Shown: positions 952 to 51,944 of the stretch, piece after piece
Position numbering within the stretch: the first letter of the stretch is position 1
Layout of the letters: every line of letters begins with the position of its first letter
NCBI RefSeq assembly: GCF_007556815.1
Contig: NZ_CP041743.1
Location: forward strand, 1,736,001 to 1,800,000
Reading direction: 5' to 3'
DNA length: 64,000 nt
Origin: Paraburkholderia megapolitana
GTDB lineage: Bacteria > Pseudomonadota > Gammaproteobacteria > Burkholderiales > Burkholderiaceae
Notes under the pieces: model-generated
What the model was told of the DNA's origin: nothing
The model's input: the letters and a program-made list of their open reading frames with translations, nothing else
Databases searched by the model: none
Made by a program: the position numbers and the translations under genes

Positions 952-2712
952 TTATACCGCGGCGACCGGTACCTGCAAGGCACTCATCGCGGCGGTGTAC
1001 AGCGGGACGATGTCCCGCCGCAGCGAATCGGCCGGCACGACCATTTCGATGACCTGCAGCCCCTCGGCCGATTTCGCATCGGCGAGCGCCTGCTGCAGGG
1101 CCTGCAGCGATTCGCAGCGCACGTGCTGCAAACCGAACGCGGCAGCGGCCGGCCCGATACGGTAGCCCGGCGGATTGCGCACGAGGCGCGTGTAATCGGG
1201 CAGCGTCTTCTCGAGCCCGAGACCGAGCACATCGAACAGCGACGCGCCGCTGTTGTTGGTGACGCAGATCGTGCCGCGCAGACCGGCAATGCGACTGGCT
1301 TCCAGCCCGCTCAGATCGTGCAGGAACGTCTGATCGCCGATCAGCAGCAAACCGCGCGACTGCGAACCGTGCAACTCGCCGATGAACGTCGAGTTGGTCC
1401 CGTCGATCCCGACCACCCCGCGGTTCGAATACACCTGCAGGTCGTGCGCCTCGAGCAGCAGATTGGTATGGCGCGTGGTCATCGAATTGGCGACATGCAG
1501 GAGGTCGTAGCCGTCGGCGGCCAGCACCGTCGCGACGGCCTGGCATTCGCCCCAGGGCAGCGCGGCGAGCGCTTCGTTCAGGCCGTTGCGGACCACTACG
1601 TCGCGACTTACCCACTGCTCGAGCCAGTTCTCGTCGCCGCGCCCAAGGCTGGCGGCGAGCCGTTCGAGATCGGCTTCGTCGGGATTTTGCAGCAGCTCGA
1701 AGCGCGGCGTCAGGAAGTCCGCCTCGATGTGCTTGCGATCGATACGCAGCACCGGCGCCGACAGCGTGCTGAGCCAGTTCTGCATGTACTGCGACACCGG
1801 CAGACCGCCGAGCCGGATTACGAGGTCCGGCTGTTCTTTCTCGACCGCTACAAGAATGTCGGCTGTGGTGAGCAGATTGGGCATGCCTGGGCGGCGCAGA
1901 CCGGAGAGCGCATCGGCGAGCAGCGGGAAGCCCAGTTGCTTCGACAGCTTCGCGGCAGCCGACGGCGTCAGCGGACAGTCCGATGCAGCCACCACCAGGC
2001 CCTTCATGCCAGGACGCAGCCCCAGCCGCGCAATCAGGCCGTCCCAATCGGTTGCATGCGGCTGGGTGATTGCTACATCGCGGATCGGCAGCGGCGTGCC
2101 CGTGGCGTTAAAGCGACCGTGACGCGCCAGGTCGCTGAGCGCAGGCGGTTCCCAGTTCGGCGTCGGATCGGCTGAGCTGAGCTTGCCGGCCATCGGGATA
2201 TTGATCTGCACCGGACCCTTGCGATCGCCGATCAAGTGCGGCAGCAATCCGGCAATCTTGCCGCGCAGCGCTTCGATGTCCTGCGAGCTGTCGGTCGGGT
2301 TGTCGAGGTCGAGCGCGGCGCGCACGACGGCCGCGCACAGGCCGATCTGGTTCGTGGTTTGCGGCATGCCCGACTTCTGACCGCCCTTGGGGCGATCGGC
2401 GGTGAGGACGATCACCGGCACGTCGGTGCTGTCGGCCTCGATGAGCGCCGGCAGCAAGTTGCCCACCGACGAACCCGAGGTCACCGCGACCACCACCGGT
2501 CGCTGGGTTGCCTTGGCGAGGCCGAGCGCCAGGAAGCCGGCGGCGCGTTCGTCGGTCTGCACGTGAGCGATTTCCCAGTCGCTCGCCGCGATGCCCGCGA
2601 TCAGGGCGAACGAGCGTCCACCGGCACAGACGACAGCCTGGCGGACACCCGCGCGCGAGAGTTCGTCGATGATCGCGTGCACCCACGCGGTATTGCGGTT
2701 CTGCAGGGACAT
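952..2712 (-). CDS. MenD-like thiamine-diphosphate-dependent enzyme
   Basis: 586-residue ThDP enzyme whose closest recognisable family is MenD (SEPHCHC synthase), which adds a succinyl carbanion equivalent from 2-oxoglutarate to isochorismate. Family marks: the N-terminal NRNTAWVHAIIDEL segment, TDERAAGFLALGLAKA carrying the presumed cofactor-activating Glu, the LTADRP segment, and the C-terminal ThDP/metal region with GDQTFLHDL followed by TNNSG. The usual PGSRSTP loop reads AGGRSFA, which suggests a changed substrate site. No other menaquinone gene is nearby. It begins 1 nt after the pyruvyl transferase stop and has an AGAGG ribosome site, so it is the last gene of the PKS/NRPS operon. Inference: it makes an unusual starter unit, decarboxylates a 2-oxo acid, or makes a C-C bond on the product. 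Confidence 0.8.
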   Translation of the reverse strand: MSLQNRNTAWVHAIIDELSRAGVRQAVVCAGGRSFALIAGIAASDWEIAHVQTDERAAGFLALGLAKATQRPVVVAVTSGSSVGNLLPALIEADSTDVPVIVLTADRPKGGQKSGMPQTTNQIGLCAAVVRAALDLDNPTDSSQDIEALRGKIAGLLPHLIGDRKGPVQINIPMAGKLSSADPTPNWEPPALSDLARHGRFNATGTPLPIRDVAITQPHATDWDGLIARLGLRPGMKGLVVAASDCPLTPSAAAKLSKQLGFPLLADALSGLRRPGMPNLLTTADILVAVEKEQPDLVIRLGGLPVSQYMQNWLSTLSAPVLRIDRKHIEADFLTPRFELLQNPDEADLERLAASLGRGDENWLEQWVSRDVVVRNGLNEALAALPWGECQAVATVLAADGYDLLHVANSMTTRHTNLLLEAHDLQVYSNRGVVGIDGTNSTFIGELHGSQSRGLLLIGDQTFLHDLSGLEASRIAGLRGTICVTNNSGASLFDVLGLGLEKTLPDYTRLVRNPPGYRIGPAAAAFGLQHVRCESLQALQQALADAKSAEGLQVIEMVVPADSLRRDIVPLYTAAMSALQVPVAAV

Positions 2713-2713
2713 G

Positions 2714-4162
2714 TCAGCTATTCCTCTCTAATAGGGCGTGCAGTTCGGGATGCATCGAGGGCAGGTAGGCGCTCCATCCGGCGTTGCTGTCGGGTGTCTT
2801 GATGTCGGGATGGAAGCGCCGCACTTCGTCGGCGAAGCGCTTGCCCATCTCGCCCATTGCGCGCAACTGGCTCGCGACAAACGCCTGCGCGGCCGCGCCG
2901 ATCGATTCGCGCTCGGCCTGCGCATGGCGCAGCGCCGGCAGGATCTGCCCGGCCAGCTCTGGGCTGTCGGCGCGCAGCAGCCGGCGGTTGTGTTCGCCGG
3001 CGCCCAGCAGGTTGTTGATGCGCTCGTCCATGCTGATACCGACCGCGGGTACACCGGCCTGCATGCTGGTCACGATCGCGTGAAAGCGCGAGCTGAGCAG
3101 CAGGTCGGCGGCGCGCAGCATGCCGACGATGGCACCCGGCGATACGTCGCCGCTCTGCACGATCGGCGGCGGAGTGTCGAAGCGCGCGGCGAGATCGTGA
3201 CAAGGCTTGCGATCGACGCGGTCCATGCCGATGATCAGCACGCTGCCGTGGTTGTCCTCGCGCCATTGCTTCGCGGCCTCGGCGATCGCGTCGAGATAGG
3301 CGGCATAGCCGCGGCGGATCTCGTCGCTGTCGGCGTGAAACAGCACGGCTGCGTAGTGCAGGTCGCGATGCGCGCCGTGGGTTTCCAGCTCGACGGCCTT
3401 CGCGAGATCGGGACGCACCGGCCACCAGAACGGGTTGATCGGACAGATCACGAGCAGCGGCCGCTGCCCGACGCCGAGCATGCGCAGGCGCTGTTGTACG
3501 GCAGCTTCGGGCGTGGCCTGGTAAGTCCATGCAGTGTCCGCACCCGCCGCGGTACGCAGACCGAGACCGTCGAGCAAGGTGCGCGACTCCGCGTTACGGC
3601 ACAGCACGAGCGGACCCTGGCCCAGCCCGGACACGAAGTCGCGCAGACCCGGCTCCATGCGGCCGGCCTCGGCGCCGTAGCCGACGGCCAGTCGTCCGCT
3701 CGCCGAAGCGATGCCCAGGCTCGCGGCCATGAAGGCCCCGAGCGCGGTGGAGAAGTTCGACTTGAACATCGAGCCTTCGCAGGCGATCACGCCGTCGTAG
3801 CGACGACAGGTGCGCTCGAGAAAGTCGGGCAGGTAGTCGCTGCTCAGCTCGGGCCGGACCTCGTCGGCGAGCTCCAGCGGCAATGTCTCGCCGGCGGCGA
3901 TCAAACCGATCTGCACCTGCTCGCGCCCAAGAATGGCGCGTATCTGGCGGATCATCTCGGCCACCCGCACATCCGCGCCCGTATTGCCGCCGCCGTTGTA
4001 GCCGGCCAGCAGCAGACGCAGCGGCGTGCCCGGTACGCGCGGCGGCGCAGCGTTCGCGCTGTTCTGGATCAGCTCGTGCAACTGGCGCAGCAGCACGGTG
4101 TCGTTGGCGCCTGAGGCCAGATATTCGTCAAGCCGGCTGGGGGGTTCGATAATCTCGGTCAT
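2714..4162 (-). CDS. Polysaccharide pyruvyl transferase family protein
   Basis: About 482 residues. It has the WcaK/CsaB/AmsJ-type fold signatures: LLLAGYNGGGNTGADVR near the N-terminus, a central LVLCRNAESRTLL segment, and C-terminal LLSSRFHAIVTSMQAGVPAVGIS with the conserved Arg-Phe-His. Known members move pyruvate from phosphoenolpyruvate onto sugars as a ketal; others have drifted in function. The start is taken at ATG 4162 (MTEIIEPPSRLD); the frame is open 23 codons further, but those residues lie inside the phosphopantetheinyl transferase gene and look non-conserved. It overlaps that gene by 35 bp and is followed 1 nt later by the MenD-like gene, so both are translated with the cluster. 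Role inferred: pyruvylation or similar tailoring of hydroxyl groups on the product. Confidence 0.75.
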   Translation of the reverse strand: MTEIIEPPSRLDEYLASGANDTVLLRQLHELIQNSANAAPPRVPGTPLRLLLAGYNGGGNTGADVRVAEMIRQIRAILGREQVQIGLIAAGETLPLELADEVRPELSSDYLPDFLERTCRRYDGVIACEGSMFKSNFSTALGAFMAASLGIASASGRLAVGYGAEAGRMEPGLRDFVSGLGQGPLVLCRNAESRTLLDGLGLRTAAGADTAWTYQATPEAAVQQRLRMLGVGQRPLLVICPINPFWWPVRPDLAKAVELETHGAHRDLHYAAVLFHADSDEIRRGYAAYLDAIAEAAKQWREDNHGSVLIIGMDRVDRKPCHDLAARFDTPPPIVQSGDVSPGAIVGMLRAADLLLSSRFHAIVTSMQAGVPAVGISMDERINNLLGAGEHNRRLLRADSPELAGQILPALRHAQAERESIGAAAQAFVASQLRAMGEMGKRFADEVRRFHPDIKTPDSNAGWSAYLPSMHPELHALLERNS

Positions 4163-4847
4163 GAAGCGTTCCGGGCAGGTGGACAGGAAGCGGCCAGCGC
4201 CAGTGGCGCAGCATCCGCGTGGGGCCGTCATAGACGAGGGCGGCGGGATGCCCGACCTCGTGTAGCGGGGTGAGATGCCATTCGTCGTTCAGCGGGTGCA
4301 GCAGTCGCGGTCGACCCTCGCGATCGAGTGCGATCGGTGCGTCATCGAGTGCGGACAGGCCGCAACCGATCGCCTTGAGGACCGCTTCTTTCGCGGTCCA
4401 CAAGGTATAGAAACGCCGTGCCGACCCTTCGCCTTCGCCTATCGCGCGACATTCGTCCGCATTGAAGTAGTGACTGGCGATACCGCGCCAGTCGAGCGAG
4501 CGGGCGAGGTGCTCCACGTCGACGCCCACACGTAGATCGCGACCGAGCGCGATCACCGCAATCGGGCCGGCATGCGACAGGTTGAAACCGAGCCGTGGAT
4601 GAGCCGGCAACCACGGCTTGCCGCTCTCGCGCACACCCCACACGAGGCTCGCCGGCGGCTCGCCACAGGCGAGACCGAGCAACTCGCGCAACAAGCCGTG
4701 CGCGGCGGCGAAGCGATGGCTGTCCTGCGGGCGCAGAAAGGCACGCGCGCGCCGGTTCTCGTCGGCGTCGAGCAGATCGTGGCGCGTCGGCAGGGCGTCT
4801 AGGTCGACCGTGACGATCTCGATATGGGCTTTATCCAGCACGAACAT
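4128..4847 (-). CDS. Sfp-type 4'-phosphopantetheinyl transferase
   Basis: 239 residues. It carries the two diagnostic motifs of the Sfp/AcpT superfamily: GVDVEHL around residue 110 (Mg/CoA-binding Asp and Glu) and LWTAKEAVLKAIG around residue 150, with FNLSHA upstream. It transfers phosphopantetheine from CoA to the serine of ACP and PCP domains, converting apo to holo forms. The operon it sits in encodes roughly twelve such carrier domains, which accounts for its presence. The start at 4847 has a strong GGAGGG ribosome site and overlaps the thioesterase end by 17 bp, suggesting coupled translation. Length and motifs are normal; no oddity seen. Confidence 0.93.
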   Translation of the reverse strand: MFVLDKAHIEIVTVDLDALPTRHDLLDADENRRARAFLRPQDSHRFAAAHGLLRELLGLACGEPPASLVWGVRESGKPWLPAHPRLGFNLSHAGPIAVIALGRDLRVGVDVEHLARSLDWRGIASHYFNADECRAIGEGEGSARRFYTLWTAKEAVLKAIGCGLSALDDAPIALDREGRPRLLHPLNDEWHLTPLHEVGHPAALVYDGPTRMLRHWRWPLPVHLPGTLHDRDYRTPQPA

Positions 4848-5643
4848 GCAGGCCCTCCAGATCGGCAGTGAGACGCTCGCTCAGATAATCGAGCACGAGC
4901 TTCGGCTGGTACTGCGGGAAGAAATGCCCGCCGTGAAATAACCGGCCATCGAACGCGGAGTGAGTGAGGCTCGACCAACCCTGCAAGTCGCCTACTGGCA
5001 CATACGGATCGTGCAGGCCGCCCAGCGTGGTGATCGGCACGTTGCGCAGCGCGTGGGGGCTCGTGTACTGGTCGTTCATCTGCAAGTCGGCGCGCAGCAG
5101 ACGGAACACCTGGGTCCGCAACTCGGCGTTCTCGAAGACGATCTCCGGGGTGCCGCCGAGATCGCGCAGATACGCCGTCAGCTCCGCGTCGTTGCGTTCA
5201 TGGAAGGTACCGACGTGGCCGAGCAACGGCGGACGCCGCGCCGACGCGAACACGCGCAGCGGCGCGCGGCCGCGCTGCTCGAGCTTGATGGCGAGCGCAA
5301 ACGCGAGCGCCGAGCCCATGCTGTGACCGAACAGCGCAACCGGTCGATCGAGCAATGGCTCGATCGCGGGCAGCAAATCGTCGAGCAGCGCGGCGACCGA
5401 GGTATAGGCCGTCTCGTGCGCGCGATTGCTGCGGCCAGGCAACTGGATCGGGCAGACCTCGACGAAGTCGGGCAGCTGTTCGCTCCAGCCGCGATACGCG
5501 AGCGCGGTGCCGCCGGCGTGCGGAAAACATAGCAGGCGCATCGCCGGGTTCGCGCGTGCTGTGCGGAACAGGGTCCACGGTGCGCAGAGCCGGTCCGCAC
5601 TGACGTCGACGATCGGCGGACGCTGCAGGGTGGTGCCGTTCAT
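4831..5643 (-). CDS. Type II (editing) thioesterase
   Basis: 270-residue alpha/beta hydrolase of the GrsT/TEII family. It removes stalled acyl groups from carrier proteins during PKS/NRPS synthesis. Seen: CFPHAGGTALAYRGW near the N-terminus (oxyanion region), the nucleophile elbow GHSMGSALA, an Asp in LHDPYVP and the His in FHGGHFFP. The frame stays open 81 codons upstream, but that part lies inside the enoyl reductase gene. The ATG at 5643 overlaps that gene's stop (ATGA) and has GGAGG upstream, so it is the real start. Cytoplasmic, no signal peptide. It travels with the assembly-line genes, as is usual for this family. Confidence 0.92.
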   Translation of the reverse strand: MNGTTLQRPPIVDVSADRLCAPWTLFRTARANPAMRLLCFPHAGGTALAYRGWSEQLPDFVEVCPIQLPGRSNRAHETAYTSVAALLDDLLPAIEPLLDRPVALFGHSMGSALAFALAIKLEQRGRAPLRVFASARRPPLLGHVGTFHERNDAELTAYLRDLGGTPEIVFENAELRTQVFRLLRADLQMNDQYTSPHALRNVPITTLGGLHDPYVPVGDLQGWSSLTHSAFDGRLFHGGHFFPQYQPKLVLDYLSERLTADLEGLHVRAG

Positions 5644-7403
5644 GCGTTTGCCTCCGCGCCAACGCTCGCTGCCTCGGCCATCTGTTGCAGGCGGGCGGCG
5701 AGTTTTTCGATCGTCGGGTAGTTCCACACGAGCGTCGGCGAGAGCTTCATCGACAGACGCTGCTCGACGCGGTTGAGCAGCAGCAGGGTGCGTGCCGAAT
5801 CGAGCGCATAACTCTCGAAGCTGCAGCGCGGATCGATCTGGTCGATGTCGACGCCAAGTTCGCGCGCGATCTGCAGCATCAGCCACTCCTGCAGATCCTC
5901 TTCTTCATCGAGTTCGATGTCGTCCGTGGATGTCGACGTCGACGTGGATGTGACAGCCGACAGTGCCGGTGGCCACACCGAGCGCGCCATGAAATTGTCG
6001 AGATGCGCACCCGCCTCGTTCATCAACGACAGCGCGATCGCCGCCGCATGCCGGCGGCGCGGATCGGCGAACGGCGTATCGGCGGCCCACGCGTTGAAGG
6101 CGCCCATCGCCTGGCCGCACCAGATCTGGAAGTCGAGCACGCGAGCCGGATCGCCGTTGATCGCCCAGCGCGAGGCCTGGCCCAGGTACCAGCGAAACAC
6201 GAGACCCATCATGACGCGCGGGTCCTGGGCTGCCCGCTCGGCAAGACCCGGATGGCGCGCCTGCCAGAACGCGAGCGTCTGCTCTTCCACCGCTGCGATC
6301 GGCTGATGAAAGATCTGCTGTTCGAGCCGTTTGCATTCGTCGGGCGGCAGATCGCGCAGCGTGCGATGCGCGCGGTACAGCTCGCCCAACTGGTTGGCGC
6401 GCGCGGCGAACATGCTGCCGCGCTTGAGCACCTGCACGGAGACGCCGAGCTCGAACATATCGGCGGCGGGCGCCATCGTGACATCGGCGGGTTCGGCGCC
6501 GGCCAGCAGTTGCTTGACCGTATCGGAGGTGCCGGCCTCGATGCAGCCCTGGTTGATCGAACCGGTCACGACGTAGTCCGCGCCCATCGCGAAAGCGGCC
6601 GCGATCGCCGCCGGCGTGCCGAGGCCGCCGCCTGCGCCGAGCCCAACCTCGGCCGCCGGCGGAAACTCGCGCGCGACGCGTGCGCGCAACGCGGCGAGCG
6701 CCGGCCACGCGCAGACCAGCGACTGTCGATCCGTATGGCCGCCCGAATCGGCTTCGACGGTGATGTCGTCGGCCATCGGCAGCAGGCGCGCGGCGGCGAC
6801 TTCGACGGCATCGAGCGCGCCTTCGGCCCGCAGCGTCGCGAGCAGCGCTTCGGGTGCGGGCCTTAAAAAGGCCTGCGCCACTTCGCGGCGCGACACCTTG
6901 GCGATGATCCGTTGCTTTGCATGAGCGCGACCATGCTCGTCGATGCGCGCGCCGCGCGCGCGGAACAGCACGAGTGCCGCGCTCAGTTGCATGAACGCCG
7001 ACGCCTCGATGGTCTCGATGCCTTCGCGCAGATACAGCTCGACGATGCTGCGTTCCTGCGCCGGATGATCGGGCGTATGGATCAGGTTGAAGCACAGGCG
7101 TTTGCCGGGCAGCGAGGCACGCAGTCGCGCGATCGCTGCTTCGATGCGCGCCAGAGGCAGGCCCGCCGACCCGAAACTGGCGAGGCAACCGGCGCCGACG
7201 AGCGCTTCGAGCAGCGCCTCGCCGGCGATGCCGGCAGCCATCGCGCCGGCCATATAGGCGAGGCTCAGGCCATGGCGCTCACGGAACGCTGCGCTGCCCA
7301 GCGACTGCGCCGTGGCGGTGGCGCCGGGGATCTTCACAGGGGCATTCATTGCATTGACTCCATGGTTCTGCATCGACGATGTCGCGAGGTCAGACTTCTT
7401 CAT
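5640..7403 (-). CDS. PfaD-like enoyl reductase fused to an acyl carrier protein
   Basis: 587 residues. Residues 30-470 match the FMN-dependent PfaD/2-nitropropane-dioxygenase-like enoyl reductase of PUFA synthases: NLIHTPD, IEASAFMQLSAALV, VEADSGGHTD, GLGAGGGLGTPAAIAAAFAMGADYVVTGSINQ and EAGTSDTVKQLL are typical. Such enzymes reduce the enoyl thioester in trans to the KS/KR/DH proteins. Residues about 505-580 form an extra ACP (SYALDS, phosphopantetheine Ser near 535), joined by a Ser-Thr repeat and an acidic linker. Usual PfaD proteins end without a carrier domain. The start at 7403 overlaps the oxygenase end by 14 bp; in-frame ATGs at 7373 and 7349 are alternatives, the last two having GGAG nearby. 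Function is well supported; the fused ACP is unusual. Confidence 0.88.
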   Translation of the reverse strand: MKKSDLATSSMQNHGVNAMNAPVKIPGATATAQSLGSAAFRERHGLSLAYMAGAMAAGIAGEALLEALVGAGCLASFGSAGLPLARIEAAIARLRASLPGKRLCFNLIHTPDHPAQERSIVELYLREGIETIEASAFMQLSAALVLFRARGARIDEHGRAHAKQRIIAKVSRREVAQAFLRPAPEALLATLRAEGALDAVEVAAARLLPMADDITVEADSGGHTDRQSLVCAWPALAALRARVAREFPPAAEVGLGAGGGLGTPAAIAAAFAMGADYVVTGSINQGCIEAGTSDTVKQLLAGAEPADVTMAPAADMFELGVSVQVLKRGSMFAARANQLGELYRAHRTLRDLPPDECKRLEQQIFHQPIAAVEEQTLAFWQARHPGLAERAAQDPRVMMGLVFRWYLGQASRWAINGDPARVLDFQIWCGQAMGAFNAWAADTPFADPRRRHAAAIALSLMNEAGAHLDNFMARSVWPPALSAVTSTSTSTSTDDIELDEEEDLQEWLMLQIARELGVDIDQIDPRCSFESYALDSARTLLLLNRVEQRLSMKLSPTLVWNYPTIEKLAARLQQMAEAASVGAEANA

Positions 7404-8328: not shown

Positions 8329-8426
8329 GGGTTCGCTCCTGATTCTGTGCGGATGTAATGGGTTGCTTTCATCGGTATCGCTCGGCGCGGCCGCTGCGTT
8401 GCTGGAAGATGAAGAAGCGCTGTGGT

Positions 8427-21112: not shown

Positions 21113-21219
21113 GAGCAGTCTCTAGTCGGACTCGGTGGGTACGGTAGCTGGGACGACAGGGTGTGAAGCAGACGAACGGCGCTGCAACGCGGCCGGATCG
21201 ACGGAGCAACCGGGGTTCA

Positions 21220-42500: not shown

Positions 42501-45500
42501 GTCTCGAGTCGCAGCGGCACCGGCAGCGAGGCATGTACGGTTTGCCGGTCGTTCTCGCCGTCGAGCGTGGTGCGCAGCGCTTCGTGGCGCTCAGCAAGGC
42601 GGCCTAGCGCGCGTTGCAGTGCGGCTGCATCGAGCCGGCCTTCGAGTTCCATGCTGACGGTTTCGACATACGCGAGCGCGCCGGCCGGATCGATCTGCGA
42701 GGCGATCCAGATCTGCTTTTGCTGGTCGGACAACGGCAGGTTCAGCGGCGAGTTCAGCGGTTGTGTTGGCACGGGTACTGCGGTGGCAGGCTTTGCGCCA
42801 GGCAAGTAGCCGCCTTCGCGCAGGGCTTCCACACCATCCATCGTGCGCTCGACGATTGCGTCGATCTCCGCTTCGCCGTGCGCGTCGCACAGGAAGCAGT
42901 TACGGCCTTCCCAGACGAACAGGCCGCGATACAGCAGGTGGTAGTACAGCAGGTCCAGGTTGCCCGCATGCTTGAAGCGGAACAACGAACCGAAGTGAGT
43001 CAGCGACAGCGGTGCGTCGATTGCGGAGAGGCGTCTATTGAGGCGCTCCGTGAGTTCGTGGGTGCGTTCGGTCAGGCTTTCCTGGAACGAAGGGCCGCGG
43101 CGCTTCAGTTCGGTAAGCACCGAGTGGCACAGCGCGAGACCGAGCGGATGATTGTTGAACGTGCCCGCGAAGAAGGTGATGTACGGATTCGGCGCCGACG
43201 TATCGCCAAACTGCCACTGTCCGCCGTCGATGCCATCGAGTAGATTGCCGCGCGCGGCGAGCGCCGCCATCGGCACGCCGCCACCGATCGTCTTGCCATA
43301 CGTGGCGAGATCCGCTTCGACGCCGAAGATCTGCTGCGCACCGCCCGGTGCGGTGCGGAACCCCGTGATCATCTCGTCGAAAATCAGCAGGATGCCGTGG
43401 CGCTTCGTGAGTTCGCGCAGACGTTGCAGGAACTCGCGCGGCTGCATGCCGACGTTGCGGCTCTGCACCGGTTCGACGAGCACGGCGGCCAGCGTGTCGG
43501 CCTGGCGCGCGATCGCTTCGAGCGATTCGTCGCTGCCGTAGTCCAGCACGAGCAGGTCGTTGACGAAGCTCTGCGCAATGCCCGGCGCGGCCGGTTCGGT
43601 CTGGTCGCCGTACGCGCTGCGATCGCCGAGGAAGCCGTCGAAGTGCCCGTGATAGGACTTGCGGAACGTCGCGATGCGATCGCGCCCGCGCAGCAAACGC
43701 GCCAACCGCACGGCGGTCATGACCGACTCGCTGCCGGATTGACAGAACAGCACGCGATCCATGCCGCTCAGTTCGCAGATCATCTTCGCGCATTCGGCGG
43801 CGAGCGGCGAACGCGGTCCGAGCGCGATGCCGTTATCGATCTGTCGGTGTGCGGCCTGTTGCATGAACGGCGCGCCATGACCGAACAGATTCACGCCGAA
43901 ATCCATCGAGATGTCGATGTATTCGTTGCCGTCGACGTCCCACAGCAGCGCCCCCTTCGAGCGCTCGCCGGTGATCGGGTAGAGCAGCTCCTTCATTGAA
44001 GGGCGGAAGCCAGCCGACGCGCGCACGTCGGCGAAGTGCTGGCGACGCAGCCCCGCGAGCCGTTTCGATTCCGCCGTGCGAGCGATATAGCGCTTCGCGA
44101 AGGCATCGAAATGGGCGGCCTGGCGTGGGTCGGAATGAGACGTGGCAGTGGCGGCGGCGGGTTGTGCGGTGGCTGCGATCGGTGTTGCAAGTTGCGGTGC
44201 GGGTGCAGGTGCGACTGCCGCTGCCACTGGTGCGACCTGCGCGAGATGAGGGTGTGACTGCTGCGGCGGCGGTACCGTGATCGTGTTGCTCACGCTCGCC
44301 ACCGCTGGCGCGGCGGCCGCGCTGCCCGTCGTACCGAGCGCCGCCAGTTGCGCGCCGATCACGCTTTGCACCAAGGTCAGTTGTTGCTGGAACAGGCTTT
44401 CGATGCCGGTGGAATGTGCCAGTGCTACCGGTGCCGTTGGTGCTGCGACCAGCAACGGTGCAGCGGGCACCGCCGGTGCAGTGAATACCGCCGTTGGTAC
44501 CGGTGCCACTGCTACCTGGGCGATGAGTGTCGGTGCCGGCGCCGGCACGCTCTGCGTCGCGAGAAACGCGCCCAGTCGATTGATCGTATTGAGCTCGCCG
44601 AGCAGTTCGCGGATACCGATCTTCACGCTATAGCGTGTCTGGATCGCACGCACCGCTTCGGCCAGTACCACCGAGTCAGCGCCCATTTCCACGAATGGCC
44701 GGTCGCCGGTTACGGCCTGTTCGGGTTCACCTAGCGCCTGAGCGACCTGTGTGCGGAGCTCGGCCTGGATCGTGGCGATGCGCGCGGACTCATCGGCGGC
44801 GACTGTCGGTTCTACGGCGTTGCGCCCGGAAACGGAAGTTGTCATGGGAGCGGATCTCGGCTGGACCAGTTTGTAGGTACTGCGTGCGAAGGACGAAGGC
44901 GATTGCGGCGTGCGACTACGGCGATAGGGGCGATCGAAGGCAACCCAGTCCACATCGATGCCGGCCGTGTACAGGGCGGCGGTACTGTCCAGCACACCCT
45001 GCCAGTCGTCCTCGCTACCGTTGAGGCTGCTGCACCACAGGGTGTCCGCGGGCGCCGCGCTGCTCTCGCCGAGCGTGCTTAGCACCGGACGCGGCCCCAG
45101 TTCGAGGAACGTGCGATGGCCCTGGGCGAGCAGCGTGGCGAGACCCTCGCGAAAGCGCACCGAGCCGCGTGCGTGACGTGCCCAATACGCGGCGTCCGGT
45201 GCGTGTTCGTGTGCCTGCGCGCTGAGATTGGAAATCACCGGTACGGCGGGCGCGCGCCAGCTCACCTGGGCGGCCAGCGCCTGCAACGGTTCGAGCACGC
45301 TGTCCATTAGCGGCGAATGGAAGGCGGCATTGGTGTCGAGCGCGCGGCTGCGAATCTTGCGCGCGGCGAGTTGCTGGACGACGCGCTCGATGGTGGTCGC
45401 GCTGCCGGCGAGCACGCAATTGCGCTCGCCGTTATCGACTGCGAGCGCAAGTTGCGTGGGCTCCGCTTCGACCAGATCGATGACACTGCTGGCGGGTGCT

Positions 45501-47560
45501 GCGACGGCCAGCATGCGACCTGCCGGCGCGTGTTCCTGCATCAGCGTGCCGCGTGCCGCGACCAGCGGCAGGATCTCGTCGATGTTGGCCATGCCGGAGA
45601 TTGCGGCCGCGCTGTATTCACCGAGGCTGTGGCCGAGCATCGCGACGGGATGGATGCCCCAGTCCGCCCACAGTTGCGCCAGCGACCAGCTCAGTGCGAC
45701 GGTGGCCGGTTGCGCGTAGCGGGTCTGTTGCAAGAGCACGCTGTTTTCTGCGTCGAACAGCAGACGCTGCAACGGCAGGTCGAGCGAAGGTTCGAGCAGC
45801 GCGGCGCAGCGGTCGATGGCCGCGCGGAATACCGGTTGCGTGCGATATAGCACAGCGCCTGCGCCGGGGCTGGGGTTGCCCTGGCCGGTCAACAGGAACA
45901 CCACGCCTTGAGCGCGCGGTTTGCTGGCGGCGGGGGGAGTCGCCGCGAGTTGTTGCAACGCTTCGCGCAGGGACGCATGGCTGTCGACGTGTAGCGCGGC
46001 GCGTACCTGGTGCCGGGCGCGGCCTGCATTTGCGGCGAAGCAGATATCGGCTAGTGCCACTTGCGGTTCGCGCGCGAGGTCGGCGGCGGCGCGGCGTGCG
46101 AGGTCGGCGAGTTGTTCGCCGCTGCGCGCACTGAGCGCATAGAGATGGCGCGGCCGGTCAATCTCCGCGCGCGGCACGGCGACCTCGGGCGCTTCTTCGA
46201 TGATCACGTGCGCGTTGGTGCCGGACAGACCGAAGGCCGACAAGCCGGCGCGACGCGGCCGTTGCTGGCGCGGCCATGCTGTGCTTGCACGCACCACCGA
46301 CGCGACACTGCGCGCCCAGTCGACATGCGGGTTCAACGCGGCGATCGGTGGTTGCGGCGGCAGCGTTTGGGCCTGCAGCGACAGCACGATCTTGGCGAGC
46401 CCGCACAGTCCGGCGGCGGCCTCGGTGTGGCCGATGTTCGCTTTCACTGCACCGATGTGCAGCGGTGCCTGCCGGCTCGCTGTGCCGAATACCGACTGCA
46501 ACGCGGACACTTCGATCGGATCGCCGAGGTCGGTACCGGTGCCGTGCGTTTCGACGTAGTCGATATCGTCGGGTTGCAGACCGGCGTTTTGCAGCGCGGT
46601 GCGGATGACCTGTTCCTGTGCAGATTTGCTCGGCACGGTGAGGCCGCCGCCGCTCGCGCCATCCTGGCTCAGCGCGGTGCCGCGAATCAACGCGTGGATG
46701 TGATAACCGTGACGTACCGCTTGCGAGAGCGGCATTAACACGGTCGCGACGCAGCCTTCGCCGTTGCCGAAACCGTCGGCGTTGGCGGCGAATGTCTTGC
46801 TGCGACCGTCGGGCGCGAGGGCGCCGATGCGCTGGAAATAGCGCCGCGCAAACGGCGCCAGAATCAGATGCGTGCCGCCGACAATCGCCATCTCGCACTC
46901 GCCGCCGCGTAGCGCGCGACACGCCAGATGCAGCGCGGTCAGCGACGACGAACAGGCGGTTTCGACTGTCATCGCCGGACCGCTGAGTCCGAGGTGATAG
47001 GAAAGCCGGCCAGCGGCAAACGCAGCGGCGTTGCCGGTGCCGAACAGGTTGTCGACGGCATCGAAGTTACCGCTCGCGAGCGGCAACTGTCCGTAGTCGC
47101 CTGAGCCGAGGCCGACGTAGACGCCGACGCGGGTGTTCTCGGCCGCGTCGCGCAGACGGTCGGGGGCGATCGCGGCTGATTCGAGCGCTTCCCACGCGAC
47201 TTCGAGCAGCAATCGCTGCTGCGGATCGAGCGAGGTCGCTTCGCGGCGCGACAGTCGGAACAGCGGTGCGTCGAAATCGTGAACGGCGCGCAGGAAAGCA
47301 CCTTGCAATCCCGCCAGGTCGCCGAACTCTTCGTGGCGTTCGGCGGGCAGGTTGCCCGTTGCAGGACGACCGGCGGCAAGCAGTTGCCAGAAGCCATCGA
47401 GGTCTTCGTTCGCGTCGGCTGTGCCGTTCGGCAGACGCGCGGCCAGCCCGACGATCGCGATCGGCTCCCTCGCCAGCACGTCGGCTTCCGCGCTGTGCTG
47501 ACGCAGACGTGAGGCCGCGACCGCAAGCTGCATCGAGCTCAGCAAGGGCAAATCTGACAT
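39566..47560 (-). CDS. PKS-aminotransferase-NRPS: KS-AT-ACP-AMT-C-A-PCP
   Basis: 2664 residues. KS (about 32-450, TACSSS with Cys203); AT (about 550-840, GHSLGE near 642; AAFHS favours malonyl-CoA); ACP (GADSVVL near 962); class III PLP aminotransferase (about 1180-1610, FDEMITGFR and TYGKTIGGG with the PLP lysine near 1420); C (HHALIDG near 1732); A (TSGSTG near 2195); PCP (GGQSLSA near 2578). The KS-AT-ACP-AMT order matches the module that turns a beta-ketoacyl thioester into a beta-amino acyl group in iturin/mycosubtilin synthases and in McyE. The A-domain pocket reads D-V-L-F-L-G-A-I-L-K, for which I know no substrate. It begins 1 bp inside the previous gene's stop. This is the only PKS module of the line with its own AT. 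Expected output: a beta-amino acyl unit amide-linked to one further residue. Confidence 0.93.
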   Translation of the reverse strand: MSDLPLLSSMQLAVAASRLRQHSAEADVLAREPIAIVGLAARLPNGTADANEDLDGFWQLLAAGRPATGNLPAERHEEFGDLAGLQGAFLRAVHDFDAPLFRLSRREATSLDPQQRLLLEVAWEALESAAIAPDRLRDAAENTRVGVYVGLGSGDYGQLPLASGNFDAVDNLFGTGNAAAFAAGRLSYHLGLSGPAMTVETACSSSLTALHLACRALRGGECEMAIVGGTHLILAPFARRYFQRIGALAPDGRSKTFAANADGFGNGEGCVATVLMPLSQAVRHGYHIHALIRGTALSQDGASGGGLTVPSKSAQEQVIRTALQNAGLQPDDIDYVETHGTGTDLGDPIEVSALQSVFGTASRQAPLHIGAVKANIGHTEAAAGLCGLAKIVLSLQAQTLPPQPPIAALNPHVDWARSVASVVRASTAWPRQQRPRRAGLSAFGLSGTNAHVIIEEAPEVAVPRAEIDRPRHLYALSARSGEQLADLARRAAADLAREPQVALADICFAANAGRARHQVRAALHVDSHASLREALQQLAATPPAASKPRAQGVVFLLTGQGNPSPGAGAVLYRTQPVFRAAIDRCAALLEPSLDLPLQRLLFDAENSVLLQQTRYAQPATVALSWSLAQLWADWGIHPVAMLGHSLGEYSAAAISGMANIDEILPLVAARGTLMQEHAPAGRMLAVAAPASSVIDLVEAEPTQLALAVDNGERNCVLAGSATTIERVVQQLAARKIRSRALDTNAAFHSPLMDSVLEPLQALAAQVSWRAPAVPVISNLSAQAHEHAPDAAYWARHARGSVRFREGLATLLAQGHRTFLELGPRPVLSTLGESSAAPADTLWCSSLNGSEDDWQGVLDSTAALYTAGIDVDWVAFDRPYRRSRTPQSPSSFARSTYKLVQPRSAPMTTSVSGRNAVEPTVAADESARIATIQAELRTQVAQALGEPEQAVTGDRPFVEMGADSVVLAEAVRAIQTRYSVKIGIRELLGELNTINRLGAFLATQSVPAPAPTLIAQVAVAPVPTAVFTAPAVPAAPLLVAAPTAPVALAHSTGIESLFQQQLTLVQSVIGAQLAALGTTGSAAAAPAVASVSNTITVPPPQQSHPHLAQVAPVAAAVAPAPAPQLATPIAATAQPAAATATSHSDPRQAAHFDAFAKRYIARTAESKRLAGLRRQHFADVRASAGFRPSMKELLYPITGERSKGALLWDVDGNEYIDISMDFGVNLFGHGAPFMQQAAHRQIDNGIALGPRSPLAAECAKMICELSGMDRVLFCQSGSESVMTAVRLARLLRGRDRIATFRKSYHGHFDGFLGDRSAYGDQTEPAAPGIAQSFVNDLLVLDYGSDESLEAIARQADTLAAVLVEPVQSRNVGMQPREFLQRLRELTKRHGILLIFDEMITGFRTAPGGAQQIFGVEADLATYGKTIGGGVPMAALAARGNLLDGIDGGQWQFGDTSAPNPYITFFAGTFNNHPLGLALCHSVLTELKRRGPSFQESLTERTHELTERLNRRLSAIDAPLSLTHFGSLFRFKHAGNLDLLYYHLLYRGLFVWEGRNCFLCDAHGEAEIDAIVERTMDGVEALREGGYLPGAKPATAVPVPTQPLNSPLNLPLSDQQKQIWIASQIDPAGALAYVETVSMELEGRLDAAALQRALGRLAERHEALRTTLDGENDRQTVHASLPVPLRLETSDERDAWLTAFQAEPLDLSRTGPLQVGLLQPASGPSVLAIRAHHALIDGISLGLVVEELSTLLQNPHAELPAALPFREHLRAIADADDTQALAFWQQRIAEAPAPLPLSTLGSMQQSRWQGARVRLPVPAEVSTALGKLAGSHGTTIFTAALATTLSLLHASYDRDDVLIGIGAHGRKHGHERMVGQAAQVLPWRSRLKTGMRFDTLLREVDAQWQGLGEYQAYPVSRLLEQVLGNEQRAGALNVIFNMDHTRHTEFAGLPARLLDAPVAGAKFELSINLLQTRQGWLLDLDYSSDRYEREQIERIGRRWLDWAGRVATDPHLELERAVALPAEELNKVLAAFATDVAPPPAADFVQLFREQLARAPQAIAIRDQQREYDYATLDRAARVLAKRLHAHGAGAGRIVAAALPRSAELVTAVLACFYAGAAILPISGDEPKARRTQIFATAQPAVVLTLAATATDLIDLEIPVIALESPSALAAAVAQEDFEPLQSTAGQLAFVIYTSGSTGVPKGVECTRDGLARLLAWNIDQYEVGHGDTVLLSSPTTFDVAMLEICLPLASGGRVAIVAPEQHSDPQYLARLMVAEQVTFAFLVPALLELIVRQPEMKECRSLRHLLAGGDTVPADLRDAVLALGLPLKFHNAYGPTETTILVSQFDCLPGQTEHYVPIGYAPKGTWFRIVDSRNRPVGVGIEGDLLIGGEQLSRGYLGDPELTRQQFATDPLGRPDARIYRSGDRACWREDGAVIHRGRADRLVKLRGQRLELGEIEIALRAHPQIGTAVVDLLADQTLIAWYVPSDVLANAPIAALRDYLASRLPAYMVPTHYLHLPELPLMSSGKVDRAALPRPAEAVPAAVSDASPLERELLDYIHRELQLAPGGTTENFFAAGGQSLSAAKLVSWVRQHWQIELPLKQFLAEPSVRSLAIAIEAERARAAGGAPASAGIIPIRSRAQRRVRRDAALEGVQAIESSNSEVSQ

Positions 47561-50500
47561 CAGGCGTCTCCCGTGGCTGTGATCAGTTCTTGCCAGGCTT
47601 CGGCGTCGTCGAGTCCCGCGATCAGGGACAGCAGTTCATGCACCGGCTGGTTGGCGAGCGTCGATGGCCGTGCGGTGGCGATGGCCGGTGACGACGCTGG
47701 CACTGCTCCGTGCGCGTGACCGGCGGTATCGGCGGCAGGCAGCAGCAGACCCAGCAGACGCGTGGCGAGGCTGCGTACCGAGGGTGTCTCCAGCGCGAGC
47801 GTGCTCGGCAGTTGCAAGCCGCTCGCGCGTTGCAGGTTGTCGTGGAATTCGAGTGCCATCAGCGAATCCATGCCTTGTTCCTGCAGACCCAGCACCGGAT
47901 CGGGACGCTCGCCCGTCGGCAGATGCAGTACGCGTCCGAGGATTTCACCGATGCGTTGTTCAAGCAGATGAGTGCGCTGCGCAGTGGGCGCGTCGATGAG
48001 CCACTGGCGCCACGGCGCGCGTGCGGCATCCGATGCGACGGGTTTCGCGCTTACGGCTGCGACCGGCTCGAGCAATTCGCTGAGTAGCGGCGGCGGTGTG
48101 TCGCCCACGTGTCGCGCGATCTCTTTCCAGTCGACCGGCAGTGCCAGCAGATGATGGATGTCCTGAACCTGTTCGATCTGCCGCAGCACACCATCGACCT
48201 GCAATGGCTGCAGGCCGAGGCGCTGCCAGTAAGCGCGCAAGGCGGCAGGCGCAGTGGCTTCCATGCCGATACCGACGATCGGTGCCGGGCTCACCGCCAG
48301 CGCGACGTGGCCTTGACCGCGACGATGCGCGGCGACGGCGTCGAGCACCGCGTTGGCGGCGTTGTAGTTGCCGTTGCCGGGCAGGCCGAAGGTCGCGGCC
48401 GCCGACGAGATCAACATGAACAATGGCAGATCGCGCCCACGCAACGCATCGGCTAGCGTCAGCGCGGCGTCGGCTTTGCCACTCAACACTTTGGCGACCT
48501 GCTGCTCGGTCATCTGCGCGAGGAATGCGCCTTCGAATGCGCCGGCGGCATGGATCACACCGGCCAGCGAACCATCCAGTTGTTTCTCGGCAGTGACGAG
48601 CGCGGCGCGCAATGCATCGGCGTCGCCGACGTCGCAGAGGAAGCTCTCGACGCGGACCTGCTGCGCGCGCAGCGCTTCGATTCGTTGCAGCGCTGCCGCA
48701 TCTGGAGTGCGGCGACCCAGCAAGGCAAGCCGACGCGCACCGCGCTCGACTAGCCAGCGCAGCAAATGCTCACCGAGTGCGCCGAAGGCACCGGTGACCA
48801 GGTACACGCCGTTGGCATCCAGTGGGGGAACGGCGATATCGGCGGCGACCGGTGCGCGCTGTAGTCGCGGTGCCCACCAGGCGCCATCGCGCGAGGCCAG
48901 TTCATGTTCTGCGCGAGGCGAACGTATCGCCTCGTACAGGAGCGCCGACGCTTCGCCGTGATCGGCGGTGCCGGGCAGGTCGATGCTGCCGCCGAGCAGA
49001 TGCGGCGCTTCATTGGCCAGCGTACGCGCGATGCCGTGCAAAACAGCCTGCGCGGGATGGTCGAGCGTTGCGCGCGCAACGACTGCCTGGGACGCGCGGG
49101 TAGCGAACCACAACCGCATCGGTTGCTGGCCGCTCTCGATCAATGCCTGCACGGTCGCGAGGCCGCCGATGAACAGCGATTGCGCGCTGTCGTGGCTGCG
49201 GTTGTCGAGCGCATCGAGATGCAGCACGGCGCGCCACTGCGGACCCTGGGTGGCGAGCGCCCCGGCGACGGTTGCCTTGCGCGTGGCCAGATTACCTTCG
49301 ACGCCGACTGTGACGACGTGGTCGCCGTCGGCTTCGATGCGCGTGCGCAGCTGTTCGGCCAGCTCGCCGCCGCCGACCAGTAGCCAGCGTTGCGCGTCGG
49401 TCGTGGCGACGGGTTGGGCATCGAGCTTCGGCAGTTCGCGCCACTGAATCCGATAGGCGTGCTGGTTGTGCGCGTTTGAATCCGTTGCTGTTGCGGGTTG
49501 CTCCTGAGCGATGAGGGGAGCGAACCAGCAGCGACGACGACGCCACGGATAGGCGGGCAGCTCGGTGAACTGCCCCTGCGGGTAGATACGCTCCCAGCGC
49601 AGATCGTGGCCGTGCACGTAAAGCAACGCGAGCGCCTGCGCTGGTTCGCGTGCATGCAGCACACGGATGCGCTCGGGCAGGCCAGCCGGTGCCTCGGCGG
49701 CTTGCAGCAGCAGGTCCCAGCGACCCGTGAGCTTGCTCACGGCCTGCTTGCCGGCACCCGCGGCGAGCACCATGCCGAGCGCGAAGCGACCGTCGTCGAG
49801 TGCGCTGTCGTCGGCGAGAATGGCCAGCTTGCGCGGTCCTGCCGCCGGGCGTTGACCTTGCCACAGCGCATCGTGGGTTTGACCGGCTGCCGCTGCGCGC
49901 AACGCGGCGACAAGGCTCGCGCGATCGCCCTGAGCGAAGAGCCGATGATCGAGATGATCGCGGTGACGTGCTGCGCTATAGCAGACGTCGTGCAATTCAT
50001 TCGATGCGAGGCCCGCGATACGATCGGCATAACGTGCGGCAAGTTCGCGCAATGCCTCGGGATGTGCAGCGGAAAGCGGCAGCGACCAGATTTGGGCTTG
50101 CGCGCCGTCGAGCACCGCGTGCCCGTCGCGTTCGGGTTGCGCGGCGACCTGTTCGAGAATCACATGCGCGTTGCTGCCGCCGAAGCCGAAGCTGCTGACG
50201 CCGATATGCGCAGGCCGGTCTTGCGCAGACAACGGCGTCGTCGCTGTGGCGACCTGCAATCCGAGCGCATCGAGGTCGATCTCCGGATTCACGCGCTGAA
50301 AATTCAGGCTGGCCGGCAGGCGGCCTTCATCGAGTGCCACGGCTGCCTTCAACAGTCCGGCGATGCCGGCCGCCGACTCGAGATGACCGATATTGGTCTT
50401 GACCGATCCAACCAGCAGAGCGGACGCGCGTTTTGCCCGCAGCGCCTGAGCCAGTGCATGCGCTTCGATCGGATCGCCGAGCGGCGTACCTGTGCCGTGC

Positions 50501-51402
50501 AATTCGACAGCATCGATGTCGCTCGCCTGCAAGCCTGCATCGGCGAGTGCCGCTTCGATCACCGCCACCTGGGCGGGACCGCTCGGCGCGGTGAGGCCAT
50601 TGCTGCGACCGTCCTGATTGGCGGCGCTGCCGGCAATCAGGGCGAGCACGGGGTGATGGTCGCGCGCGGCATCGGCGGCGCGTTTGAGTAGCACGATGGC
50701 GCCGCCTTCACCGCGGACATAACCGTCGGCACTCGCGTCGAAGGTCTTGCAGCGACCGTCCGGCGACAGCATCCGCGCGTTGGCGAATACTTCCATCAGG
50801 TCGCCGGCTAGCAGCAGGTTCACACCGCCGACGATCGCCAGATCGATCTCGCCCGCGCGCAACGCGCGTACCGCGAGGTGGGTCGCGTTCAGCGACGACG
50901 AGCAGGCCGTATCCAGCGCGAAGCTCGGACCGGCCAGATTGAGTACGTATGAGATGCGATTCGCGGCGATGCTCAGCGCATTGCCGGTACCCGAATACAG
51001 ATCGAGGGTGCCGTTGCCGCCGACCTGCAGGCGACTGTAGTCGGATGTGGAGATGCCGATATAGACGCCGGTCCGGCTGCCGGCGAGATCCTTGCGCGGC
51101 AGACCAGCCGCATCGAGTGCTTCCACCACCAGCTCGAGCAACAGGCGCTGTTGCGGGTCCATCTGATCGGCTTCGCGCTGCGCGATGCCGAAGAACTCGG
51201 GATCGAAGCGCTCGACGTCGGCGAGCAAACCGGCGCGCTGTGCGCCGCGCGCGAGCCCCTGACGTGCGGCGGGAATCGTCGACACCGCCTCGCGCGCGTC
51301 GGCTAGCAACGCACGAAATGCGGCCAGATTTTCAGCGCCTGGAAATCTACAGGCAGCACCGATTATGGCGACCCGTGAAGGTCCGGATAATGGTAATGAC
51401 AT
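47560..51402 (-). CDS. First PKS of the line: AT-less KS-KR-ACP
   Basis: 1280 residues, first gene of the operon. KS (about 8-425) has LDTACSSS (Cys near 165), ELHGTGT and GHLESAAG. About 200 residues of linker follow without any acyltransferase motif, ending in the post-AT LPAYPWRRRRCWF. KR with VTGAFGALG near 872 and Ser/Tyr catalytic residues in ISSAAATFGLPGNGNYNAAN. ACP with GMDSLMA near 1179, then a helical tail that may dock on the next protein. There is no loading domain, so the KS must receive a chain made elsewhere; the PUFA-type synthase of the same operon is the obvious donor (inference). One cycle would give a beta-hydroxyacyl chain. ATG at 51402 has CAAGGGG about 11 nt upstream. 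Confidence 0.92.
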   Translation of the reverse strand: MSLPLSGPSRVAIIGAACRFPGAENLAAFRALLADAREAVSTIPAARQGLARGAQRAGLLADVERFDPEFFGIAQREADQMDPQQRLLLELVVEALDAAGLPRKDLAGSRTGVYIGISTSDYSRLQVGGNGTLDLYSGTGNALSIAANRISYVLNLAGPSFALDTACSSSLNATHLAVRALRAGEIDLAIVGGVNLLLAGDLMEVFANARMLSPDGRCKTFDASADGYVRGEGGAIVLLKRAADAARDHHPVLALIAGSAANQDGRSNGLTAPSGPAQVAVIEAALADAGLQASDIDAVELHGTGTPLGDPIEAHALAQALRAKRASALLVGSVKTNIGHLESAAGIAGLLKAAVALDEGRLPASLNFQRVNPEIDLDALGLQVATATTPLSAQDRPAHIGVSSFGFGGSNAHVILEQVAAQPERDGHAVLDGAQAQIWSLPLSAAHPEALRELAARYADRIAGLASNELHDVCYSAARHRDHLDHRLFAQGDRASLVAALRAAAAGQTHDALWQGQRPAAGPRKLAILADDSALDDGRFALGMVLAAGAGKQAVSKLTGRWDLLLQAAEAPAGLPERIRVLHAREPAQALALLYVHGHDLRWERIYPQGQFTELPAYPWRRRRCWFAPLIAQEQPATATDSNAHNQHAYRIQWRELPKLDAQPVATTDAQRWLLVGGGELAEQLRTRIEADGDHVVTVGVEGNLATRKATVAGALATQGPQWRAVLHLDALDNRSHDSAQSLFIGGLATVQALIESGQQPMRLWFATRASQAVVARATLDHPAQAVLHGIARTLANEAPHLLGGSIDLPGTADHGEASALLYEAIRSPRAEHELASRDGAWWAPRLQRAPVAADIAVPPLDANGVYLVTGAFGALGEHLLRWLVERGARRLALLGRRTPDAAALQRIEALRAQQVRVESFLCDVGDADALRAALVTAEKQLDGSLAGVIHAAGAFEGAFLAQMTEQQVAKVLSGKADAALTLADALRGRDLPLFMLISSAAATFGLPGNGNYNAANAVLDAVAAHRRGQGHVALAVSPAPIVGIGMEATAPAALRAYWQRLGLQPLQVDGVLRQIEQVQDIHHLLALPVDWKEIARHVGDTPPPLLSELLEPVAAVSAKPVASDAARAPWRQWLIDAPTAQRTHLLEQRIGEILGRVLHLPTGERPDPVLGLQEQGMDSLMALEFHDNLQRASGLQLPSTLALETPSVRSLATRLLGLLLPAADTAGHAHGAVPASSPAIATARPSTLANQPVHELLSLIAGLDDAEAWQELITATGDA
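49525..50140 (-). other. AT-less linker in the first PKS
   Basis: The region between KS and KR keeps the adaptor ahead of an AT (VCYSAARHRDHLDHRL) and the linker behind it (HDLRWERIYP, LPAYPWRRRRCWF). The stretch between them (LAILADDSALDDGR onward) is far too short for an AT and has no GHSxG. It is either a trans-AT docking region or a deletion of a former AT. Confidence 0.8.
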
Positions 51403-51501
51403 ACCTGAATTGCCCCTTGCCGATCATGCGCAGACAGACATCCATGCAATGCTTTATATGCGGGGGGCATGCGTGGCTTTTGGGAACTGTCCCACACACA
51501 A

Positions 51502-51546
51502 TTCCTGTTTAAAAACGCCACACCTCTAGCGGCCGGATAACAGGAA
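51502..51546. promoter_or_regulatory. 8-bp inverted repeat upstream of the cluster
   Basis: TTCCTGTT (51502-51509) and AACAGGAA (51539-51546), perfect arms with 29 nt between them, about 100-145 bp ahead of the first PKS start. A GGAACTG heptamer also occurs at 51483 and again at 51543. This is a candidate activator or repressor site; no family consensus is recognised. Confidence 0.3.
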
Positions 51547-51800
51547 CTGCGTCGCGATTCAATTGACAGCGGGGCCATTAGACGCGGCCTGGCGCGGGAT
51601 GTCTGCCCCAGAAACGAGGGACATTGCCGCTTGACGGGCATTGGCGCTCAAGCGGGCGCGGTGGCGTTTGTCTTGAGAATGGGGTAAGGGCGAATCAACC
51701 CGAATGAGCAATCTGCTATTGCCGGAGTGGATTTATCGATGTCTGAATGGACGCGGTGAAATGCCGATCGAATTATTCGCCAGGGATTTCCCGAGATACA

Positions 51801-51816
51801 GATGCATACATGCATC
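51801..51816. promoter_or_regulatory. 16-bp palindrome GATGCAT-AC-ATGCATC
   Basis: Two 7-bp arms in perfect inverted repeat with a 2-nt centre, in the middle of the divergent region. The symmetry fits a dimeric regulator, but the cognate protein is unknown. Confidence 0.35.
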
Positions 51817-51932
51817 TCGCATCGCAGCAGGCGATACACGCGAAAAACGCTGTCCCGTTCAAGTTGCATGGGAGGGCGAGTCGGCGCTATGAGATTTTCA
51901 TCGTTCGGCGTATGTCGTGCAATTTATATGCG

Positions 51933-51944
51933 TATATGCATATA
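51933..51944. promoter_or_regulatory. 12-bp AT-rich palindrome TATATGCATATA
   Basis: A perfect palindrome, preceded by a direct TATATGC copy at 51925-51931, in the most AT-rich part of the divergent region. It could be a regulator site or a readily melting promoter element. No firm assignment. Confidence 0.3.

Follow-up and report, generated by a model that had tools for sequence, protein, structure and literature searches.

Twelve genes of Paraburkholderia megapolitana that match the published megapolipeptin cluster, and the relatives of its MenD-like and pyruvyl transferase genes

Megapolipeptin is a fatty-acid–peptide hybrid of Paraburkholderia megapolitana (PMC13291983, PMC12964715). The megapolipeptin (mgp) cluster of this species is described as having a stand-alone cupin, a PfaD with an extra acyl carrier protein (ACP), a thioesterase (TE) followed by a phosphopantetheinyl transferase (PPTase), and a heptamodular line of polyketide synthase (PKS) and non-ribosomal peptide synthetase (NRPS) modules, and its pyruvyl transferase works with a 2-succinyl-5-enolpyruvyl-6-hydroxy-3-cyclohexene-1-carboxylate (SEPHCHC) synthase to give a 4-oxoheptanedioic moiety (PMC13291983). 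Four tandem ACPs and an MgpF with two dehydratase (DH) domains, the first degenerate, are reported in PMC12964715, and PMC12283262 ties MgpD/MgpG to the Val moiety. The dioxanopeptin (dxp) and chitinimine (chtn) clusters resemble mgp in lipid synthase architecture, pyruvyl transferase, and a line of PKS, aminotransferase (AMT) and NRPS parts, but they are poorer in accessory genes, their line is shorter by one PKS and one NRPS module, and their product is cyclic with a pyruvate ketal (PMC13291983, PMC12964715). The fabclavine and zeamine clusters, like mgp, couple a polyunsaturated fatty acid (PUFA)-like synthase to PKS/NRPS, with a lipid part that is a polyamino alcohol on the peptide C-terminus (PMC12964715). 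With these we compare a block of twelve genes at 952-51402 (minus strand) in a window of 64,000 nucleotides (G000:C1:1736001-1800000; genome G000 is 7.63 Mb in three contigs).

This block is almost certainly the mgp cluster of P. megapolitana or of a very near strain; the cluster is already known in print and the main finding is not new. Twelve long minus-strand open reading frames (ORFs), abutting or overlapping, occupy the block, and the largest intergenic gap is 107 bp (21112 to 21220). An earlier sequence-only reading described a twelve-gene operon of about 50 kb: the block is real, and its co-directional, abutting layout is what suggests the word operon. Domains were called from Pfam and NCBIfam profiles together with motif pattern searches, using the abbreviations KS (ketosynthase), AT (acyltransferase), KR (ketoreductase), psi-KR (pseudo-KR), CLF (chain length factor), C (condensation), A (adenylation), E (epimerisation) and PCP (peptidyl carrier protein). 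In order of transcription the features are:

47560..51402, minus strand: ORF1 (probably mgpA), KS - psi-KR/KR - ACP, without AT
48037..49455, minus strand: psi-KR/KR didomain of ORF1, about residues 650-1122
39566..47560, minus strand: ORF2 (probably mgpB), KS-AT-ACP-aminotransferase-C-A-PCP
28338..39569, minus strand: ORF3 (probably mgpC), C-C-A(Thr)-PCP-C-A(Ser)-PCP-KS-KR-ACP, without AT
21220..28341, minus strand: ORF4 (probably mgpD), TubC docking-C-A(Val-like)-PCP-E-C-PCP-TE
14114..21112, minus strand: PfaA-like protein (probably mgpE), KS-AT-4xACP-KR-DH-like
8427..14114, minus strand: PfaBC-like fusion (probably mgpF), KS-CLF-AT-DH1-DH2
7390..8430, minus strand: JmjC/cupin oxygenase-like protein (probably mgpG), 346 residues, Cupin_8 and JmjC_2
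5640..7403, minus strand: PfaD-like enoyl reductase with an extra C-terminal ACP (TIGR02814, 551.9 against a cut-off of 449.25; PP-binding at 507-572)
4831..5886, minus strand: stand-alone thioesterase (Pfam), with its true start probably near 5640, at the PfaD end
4128..4847, minus strand: PfaE-like 4'-phosphopantetheinyl transferase
2714..4231, minus strand: polysaccharide pyruvyl-transferase-like protein (PSPT)
952..2712, minus strand: MenD-like (SEPHCHC synthase family) thiamine diphosphate (ThDP) enzyme (TIGR00173, 296 against 244.2)

The letters mgpA to mgpG are probable assignments from gene order, with MgpF alone tied by content. The mechanically called ORF at 7390-9426 appears to start too far upstream, and the cupin gene is probably better read as 7390-8430; its product has weak matches to JMJD7, FIH and JMJD5 chains.

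The identification was made against the published text descriptions and, for one gene, by sequence. Over all 1280 amino acids ORF1 shares 98% identity with a named P. megapolitana protein of equal length (P0038). The window holds the cupin, the PfaD with its ACP, the pyruvyl transferase and SEPHCHC synthase, the TE followed by the PPTase, and the four ACPs, and its three PKS modules and four A-containing NRPS modules make a heptamodular line; no difference from the described gene set and seven-module line was found. Since the gene set agrees with the published mgp description and ORF1 is 98% identical, the claim of novelty in the sequence-only reading, which did not recognise the combination, fails: the genes were already set out in PMC13291983 and PMC12964715. 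That reading had named a characterised cluster with the same gene order and product as the finding that would overturn it, and mgp, by its description and the ORF1 identity, comes close to this. Recognition of a striking cluster as a published one spares effort.

Several points weigh against the identification. ORF1 is the single gene matched to a named P. megapolitana protein, the mgp cluster itself having been compared by description. Elsewhere in PMC13291983 P. megapolitana is credited with one NRPS module beyond the five, and one PKS module beyond the two, that form the minimum of the clade, while the window counts six NRPS and three PKS modules if each C domain other than the E domain is taken as a module, and otherwise four and three; the higher published count fits the window only when every C domain counts. 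The same paper calls the attachment of the tail an esterification, which the ether route proposed below does not fit.

The assembly line contains one aminotransferase domain, seven domains of the Condensation family, four A domains, three KS domains and a terminal TE. ORF1 carries the KS motifs DTACSSS, HGTGT and KTNIGH and the KR motif YNAAN; neither the GHSxG pattern nor a Pfam AT was found in it. By pattern search the KS cysteine is present in ORF1, ORF2, ORF3, PfaA and PfaBC, and the KS histidine motifs were found incompletely (both in ORF1 and ORF2, one in ORF3 and PfaBC, none in PfaA), so that the KS triads are supported by pattern in part of the proteins. The A-domain codes, whose positions were taken by aligning them with a domain of a linear gramicidin synthase, read in order DVLFLGAIL (ORF2), DFWNVGMVH and DVWHFSLVD (ORF3) and DAMWIGGVL (ORF4); we take the second and third to be Thr and Ser codes and the fourth to be Val-like. 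HHxxxDG occurs in six of the seven Condensation-family domains, the remaining one, in ORF3, reading HHLIADR. The fourth A domain is followed by HHLVVDGMSW, presumably an epimerisation-type motif, and the distinction of E from C in ORF4 is made by motif.

In the lipid synthase, PfaA matches TIGR02813 at 1519.9 bits (cut-off 1010.1) and has four LGVDSIK sites and four PP-binding stretches. PfaBC has two KS-type stretches, a PfaB-like region under its cut-off (112.7 against 144.3) and, by Pfam, a single FabA-type DH stretch, the sequence upstream of which is DH-like by eye. Its second DH (DH2) reads HFKDDPVFPGPCMLEG and, judged by eye on the His/Glu criterion of PMC12964715, appears FabZ-like, which agrees with trans double bonds. 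In its chemistry the sequence-only reading was sound: it had named PfaA-, PfaC- and PfaD-like proteins (now seen as matches to TIGR02813, a PfaB/PfaC-like fusion and TIGR02814) and four PKS/NRPS proteins with beta-amination (the ORF2 aminotransferase), Thr, Ser and a D-residue (for which the support is the one epimerisation-type motif in ORF4), and it predicted that a PUFA synthase feeds the PKS/NRPS line and that the product is a lipopeptide whose chain is in part unsaturated. Its PUFA synthase is complete if the PfaB part fused into PfaC is counted.

Three other identities can be weighed against the mgp cluster. The first supposes a cluster of the dxp/chtn type, with the same lipid synthase, a cyclic peptide and a tail that bears a pyruvate ketal. 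Both kinds belong to clade III and have PSPT, PfaD-ACP and four ACPs in common (PMC13291983, PMC12964715), relatives of the PSPT at 53-61% identity lie in G695, G502/Chitinimonas sp. BJB300 and Chromobacterium, and the border is blurred by Tistlia, which PMC12964715 places in dxp and which, according to PMC13291983, retains a SEPHCHC synthase and a P. megapolitana-like module layout. The window, however, has a cupin gene, and two PKS modules precede its aminotransferase; the cupin and the second of these modules are missing from G695, the one relative whose line was examined, and no MenD-like match is present in the G695 region or the Chromobacterium locus. With cupin and MenD-like genes present and two KS domains upstream of the AMT domain, where the compact dxp/chtn core has one PKS module, we rejected dxp/chtn membership as very improbable. 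The second is an undescribed cluster that merely resembles mgp and makes another product, in favour of which stands the ORF2 code DVLFLGAIL, to which no substrate was assigned; it is scarcely credible given the near-identical, equal-length ORF1 counterpart and the presence of the published mgp markers, apart from the degenerate first DH, for which a DH-like sequence was seen by eye. A fabclavine/zeamine-type cluster, to which a PUFA-like synthase, PKS, NRPS and an aminotransferase domain would be common, has a negligible chance of being correct. The sole aminotransferase match in the twelve proteins is ORF2, in the PKS/NRPS line and not in the lipid synthase, which in fabclavine/zeamine clusters is served by an aminotransferase and a thioester reductase. 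The MenD-like, PSPT and cupin genes are extra, the Pfam families listed for the twelve proteins include no reductase-release domain, and mgp is assigned to a different family by PMC13291983 and PMC12964715; here too the sequence-only reading, which set the locus apart from fabclavine and zeamine, was right.

Two relatives of this mgp cluster differ from it in instructive ways. P. acidicola ATCC 31363 (L058, G001) has all twelve genes in the same order, with 80-95% amino acid identity in the best segments. Its ORF1 has 814 amino acids against 1280 in the window, the two being collinear but for one gap of about 470 residues that corresponds to psi-KR plus KR, and it reads HSTGS for HGTGT and SEGG for GEGG. 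The didomain (window 48037-49455) is thus a clean presence/absence between two Paraburkholderia clusters. The named record P0040 is as long as the P. acidicola ORF1 product, and both probably derive from one assembly. The primary megapolipeptin paper (Chem Sci 2024) reportedly mentions in its abstract a silent cluster in P. acidicola as well.

The second relative, in the gammaproteobacterium Dyella silvatica RBB189, is an mgp-like cluster with a shorter PKS/NRPS line; its parts lie on three contigs (L148, L149, L060) and are presumably linked. Like the window it has PfaA, PfaBC, PfaD-ACP, PSPT and MenD-like genes (61-77% identity) and a PKS/NRPS line ending in a TE, with segments at 55-77%; tblastn rows at or below 42% identity were dropped, except for the cupin query. 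It has a single first PKS module where the window has two: a KS 79% like that of ORF1 is joined to an AT-ACP-AMT-C-A stretch 62% like ORF2, whereas the ORF2 KS is 47% like the Dyella KS. The Dyella module has a post-AT linker-like stretch between KS and AT, and ORF1 of the window is without AT yet retains the post-AT linker-like LPAYPWRRRRCWF. In the Dyella equivalent of ORF3 the Thr C-A is missing, and its KS module contains an AT that is absent from both Paraburkholderia ORF3 proteins (in the window ORF3 this AT is wanting at about residues 3140-3180). In Dyella, moreover, no cupin gene separates PfaBC from PfaD, and the interval from PfaD to PSPT contains neither a TE nor a PPTase gene. Apparent cupin matches in Dyella, Chromobacterium and G695 were discarded: all of them fall in the N-terminal portion of the mechanical ORF, ahead of the point where the cupin gene probably starts. 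In the G695 region reading frames are broken, and its use was limited to KS/AT/KR presence and best-segment identities. Dyella is unnamed in the main text of PMC13291983 and PMC12964715, whose supplementary tables may list it, and among the papers listed by a literature search (10 of 21) none was on such a Dyella cluster, judged by title and abstract. The comparisons with P. acidicola and with Dyella together reveal naturally variable parts of the assembly line.

The steps of the pathway, as reported or as standard for such enzymes, would begin with iterative synthesis of a partly unsaturated C16/C18 chain by the PUFA-like synthase (PfaA, PfaBC, PfaD-ACP). The heptamodular line would accept and extend this chain, install the beta-amino group and add amino acids (Thr and Ser by code, and a Val-like residue), and the terminal TE would release the product. 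The two AT-less KS-KR modules, in ORF1 and ORF3, may be served in trans, most simply by the ORF2 AT or the lipid-synthase AT.

For the C7 group we propose a route through the PSPT and the MenD-like enzyme. The PSPT would move enolpyruvate from phosphoenolpyruvate (PEP) onto the omega-1 hydroxyl. PEP-dependent pyruvylation has been demonstrated in vitro for its homologue DxpH (PMC12964715), but unlike DxpH in the dioxanopeptins the PSPT would have no second hydroxyl for ketal closure, so that the enol ether would persist. The MenD-like enzyme might then add a succinyl carbanion from 2-oxoglutarate to the enol ether, giving a 2-alkoxy-4-oxoheptanedioate; C3 and C4 make C7, and the route would in this way account for the skeleton reported on megapolipeptins. 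It stays a proposal because PMC13291983 speaks of esterification. Against MenD chains of solved structure the MenD-like protein scores E 2.7e-59, and in an alignment of ten MenD-like proteins with Bacillus subtilis MenD the Arg of GGRS, DER, the DR of TADRP, NSxxxR, NRGxxGIDG and the ThDP-binding motif GDxxxxHD are conserved in all ten; the NQ of MenD PQxxNQ is retained only in P. megapolitana and Dyella and is DH in the other eight. The PSPT has no solved-structure relative by sequence at E <= 0.01. The pair offers testable enzymology for an unusual C7 group.

In its own genome the MenD-like gene gave, at E <= 0.001, no match other than itself among the 9 candidates scored. Among 144 same-genus genomes 89 have a match at this threshold, with high identity only in G000 (100%) and G001 (95%) and the next full-length matches at <= 40%. 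Among 5.8 billion proteins 37 are MenD-like at 1e-60 (7998 candidates scored), and above 51% identity there are only P0001 (99%) and the Dyella protein (74%). PSPT matches at 1e-10 occur in 21 of 398 family genomes; among the matches listed, G000 alone exceeds 40% and G001 does not appear. Three of 399 order genomes have one (its own, G695 at 60% and G502 at 54%), and a plasmid collection gave no match. In a named genome collection 181 stretches encode a PSPT relative, and among the best 80 of these 181 two have a MenD-like gene nearby at E <= 1e-15 (P. acidicola and Dyella silvatica). A MenD-like protein at 45% (P0009) and a KS-methyltransferase-KR protein in which Pfam finds no AT (P0142) were also seen, and probably come from a single cluster, of the kind that PMC13291983 describes for Tistlia.

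Distant versions of the pair recur near matches to a type III secretion secretin. We counted 31 loci with a distant PSPT, spread over 30 further Burkholderiaceae genomes; a second weak PSPT match in G262 (2.6e-11), G180 (an 8.5 kb contig) and the two mgp genomes, G000 and G001, were left out. At 28 of the 31 a MenD-like match is found no more than 315 bp from the PSPT match; none was found in G050 or G051, and in G192 it is on another contig. As a marker we used PF21304, the N0 domain of SPI-1-type secretins, which has matches, some under the family cut-off, in 32/32 scanned genomes and 0/14 control genomes. PF21304 lies within 20 kb of the PSPT at 24 of the 31 loci (23 of the 28 PSPT-MenD pairs) and within 40 kb at 27 (26 of the 28 pairs), where a random locus would be expected within 20 kb in about 1% of cases (an estimate from about 1.9 matches per genome in genomes mostly of 6-11 Mb). 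The loci are not independent, the genomes being related. In G074 and G167 there is no PF21304 on the PSPT contig, and in G050 and G051 it is >150 kb away; G000 and G001 also have PF21304, the nearest on G000 C1 being >0.6 Mb from the window. An earlier count with PF18269 (17/24 loci within 20 kb, 21/24 within 60 kb) was replaced because that family also matches flagellar ATPases. Neighbouring genes were read in five regions: secretins occur in L054, L055 and L056, L055 also has an SctN-like ATPase and a Bac_export_1-family export protein, AraC-type regulators occur in L052, L054, L056 and L057, and Rieske oxygenases in L052 and L056.

It is possible, if rather doubtful, that the pair is a portable two-enzyme hydroxyl cap, adding enolpyruvate and then succinyl to give a 2-alkoxy-4-oxoheptanedioate, of which megapolipeptin uses one copy while the distant version in the Burkholderiaceae type III secretion islands makes a small molecule or surface group that is linked to secretion and so far unrecognised. 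None of the three papers that a literature search gave on pyruvyl transferase and SEPHCHC synthase with type III secretion in Burkholderia describes such a link in title or abstract. Of the leads here, the pair with its relatives in the secretion islands is the most novel and worth a separate look, and the link poses the question of small molecules made beside injection systems.

Around the mgp cluster itself, a promoter scan of 51000-53000 gave no sigma-70-like sites, and the same interval has two terminator-like sites against 2.0 in shuffles. A LuxI-type autoinducer synthase lies at window 62364-62957, about 11 kb from the cluster, and is adjoined by a LuxR-type regulator and a second autoinducer-binding protein, from window 63433 to past the window end (L154:1433-2197, 2271-2945). 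Condensation-domain matches number 35 in the G000 genome (C1 and C3), 28 of them outside the mgp cluster, so that G000 has further NRPS loci.

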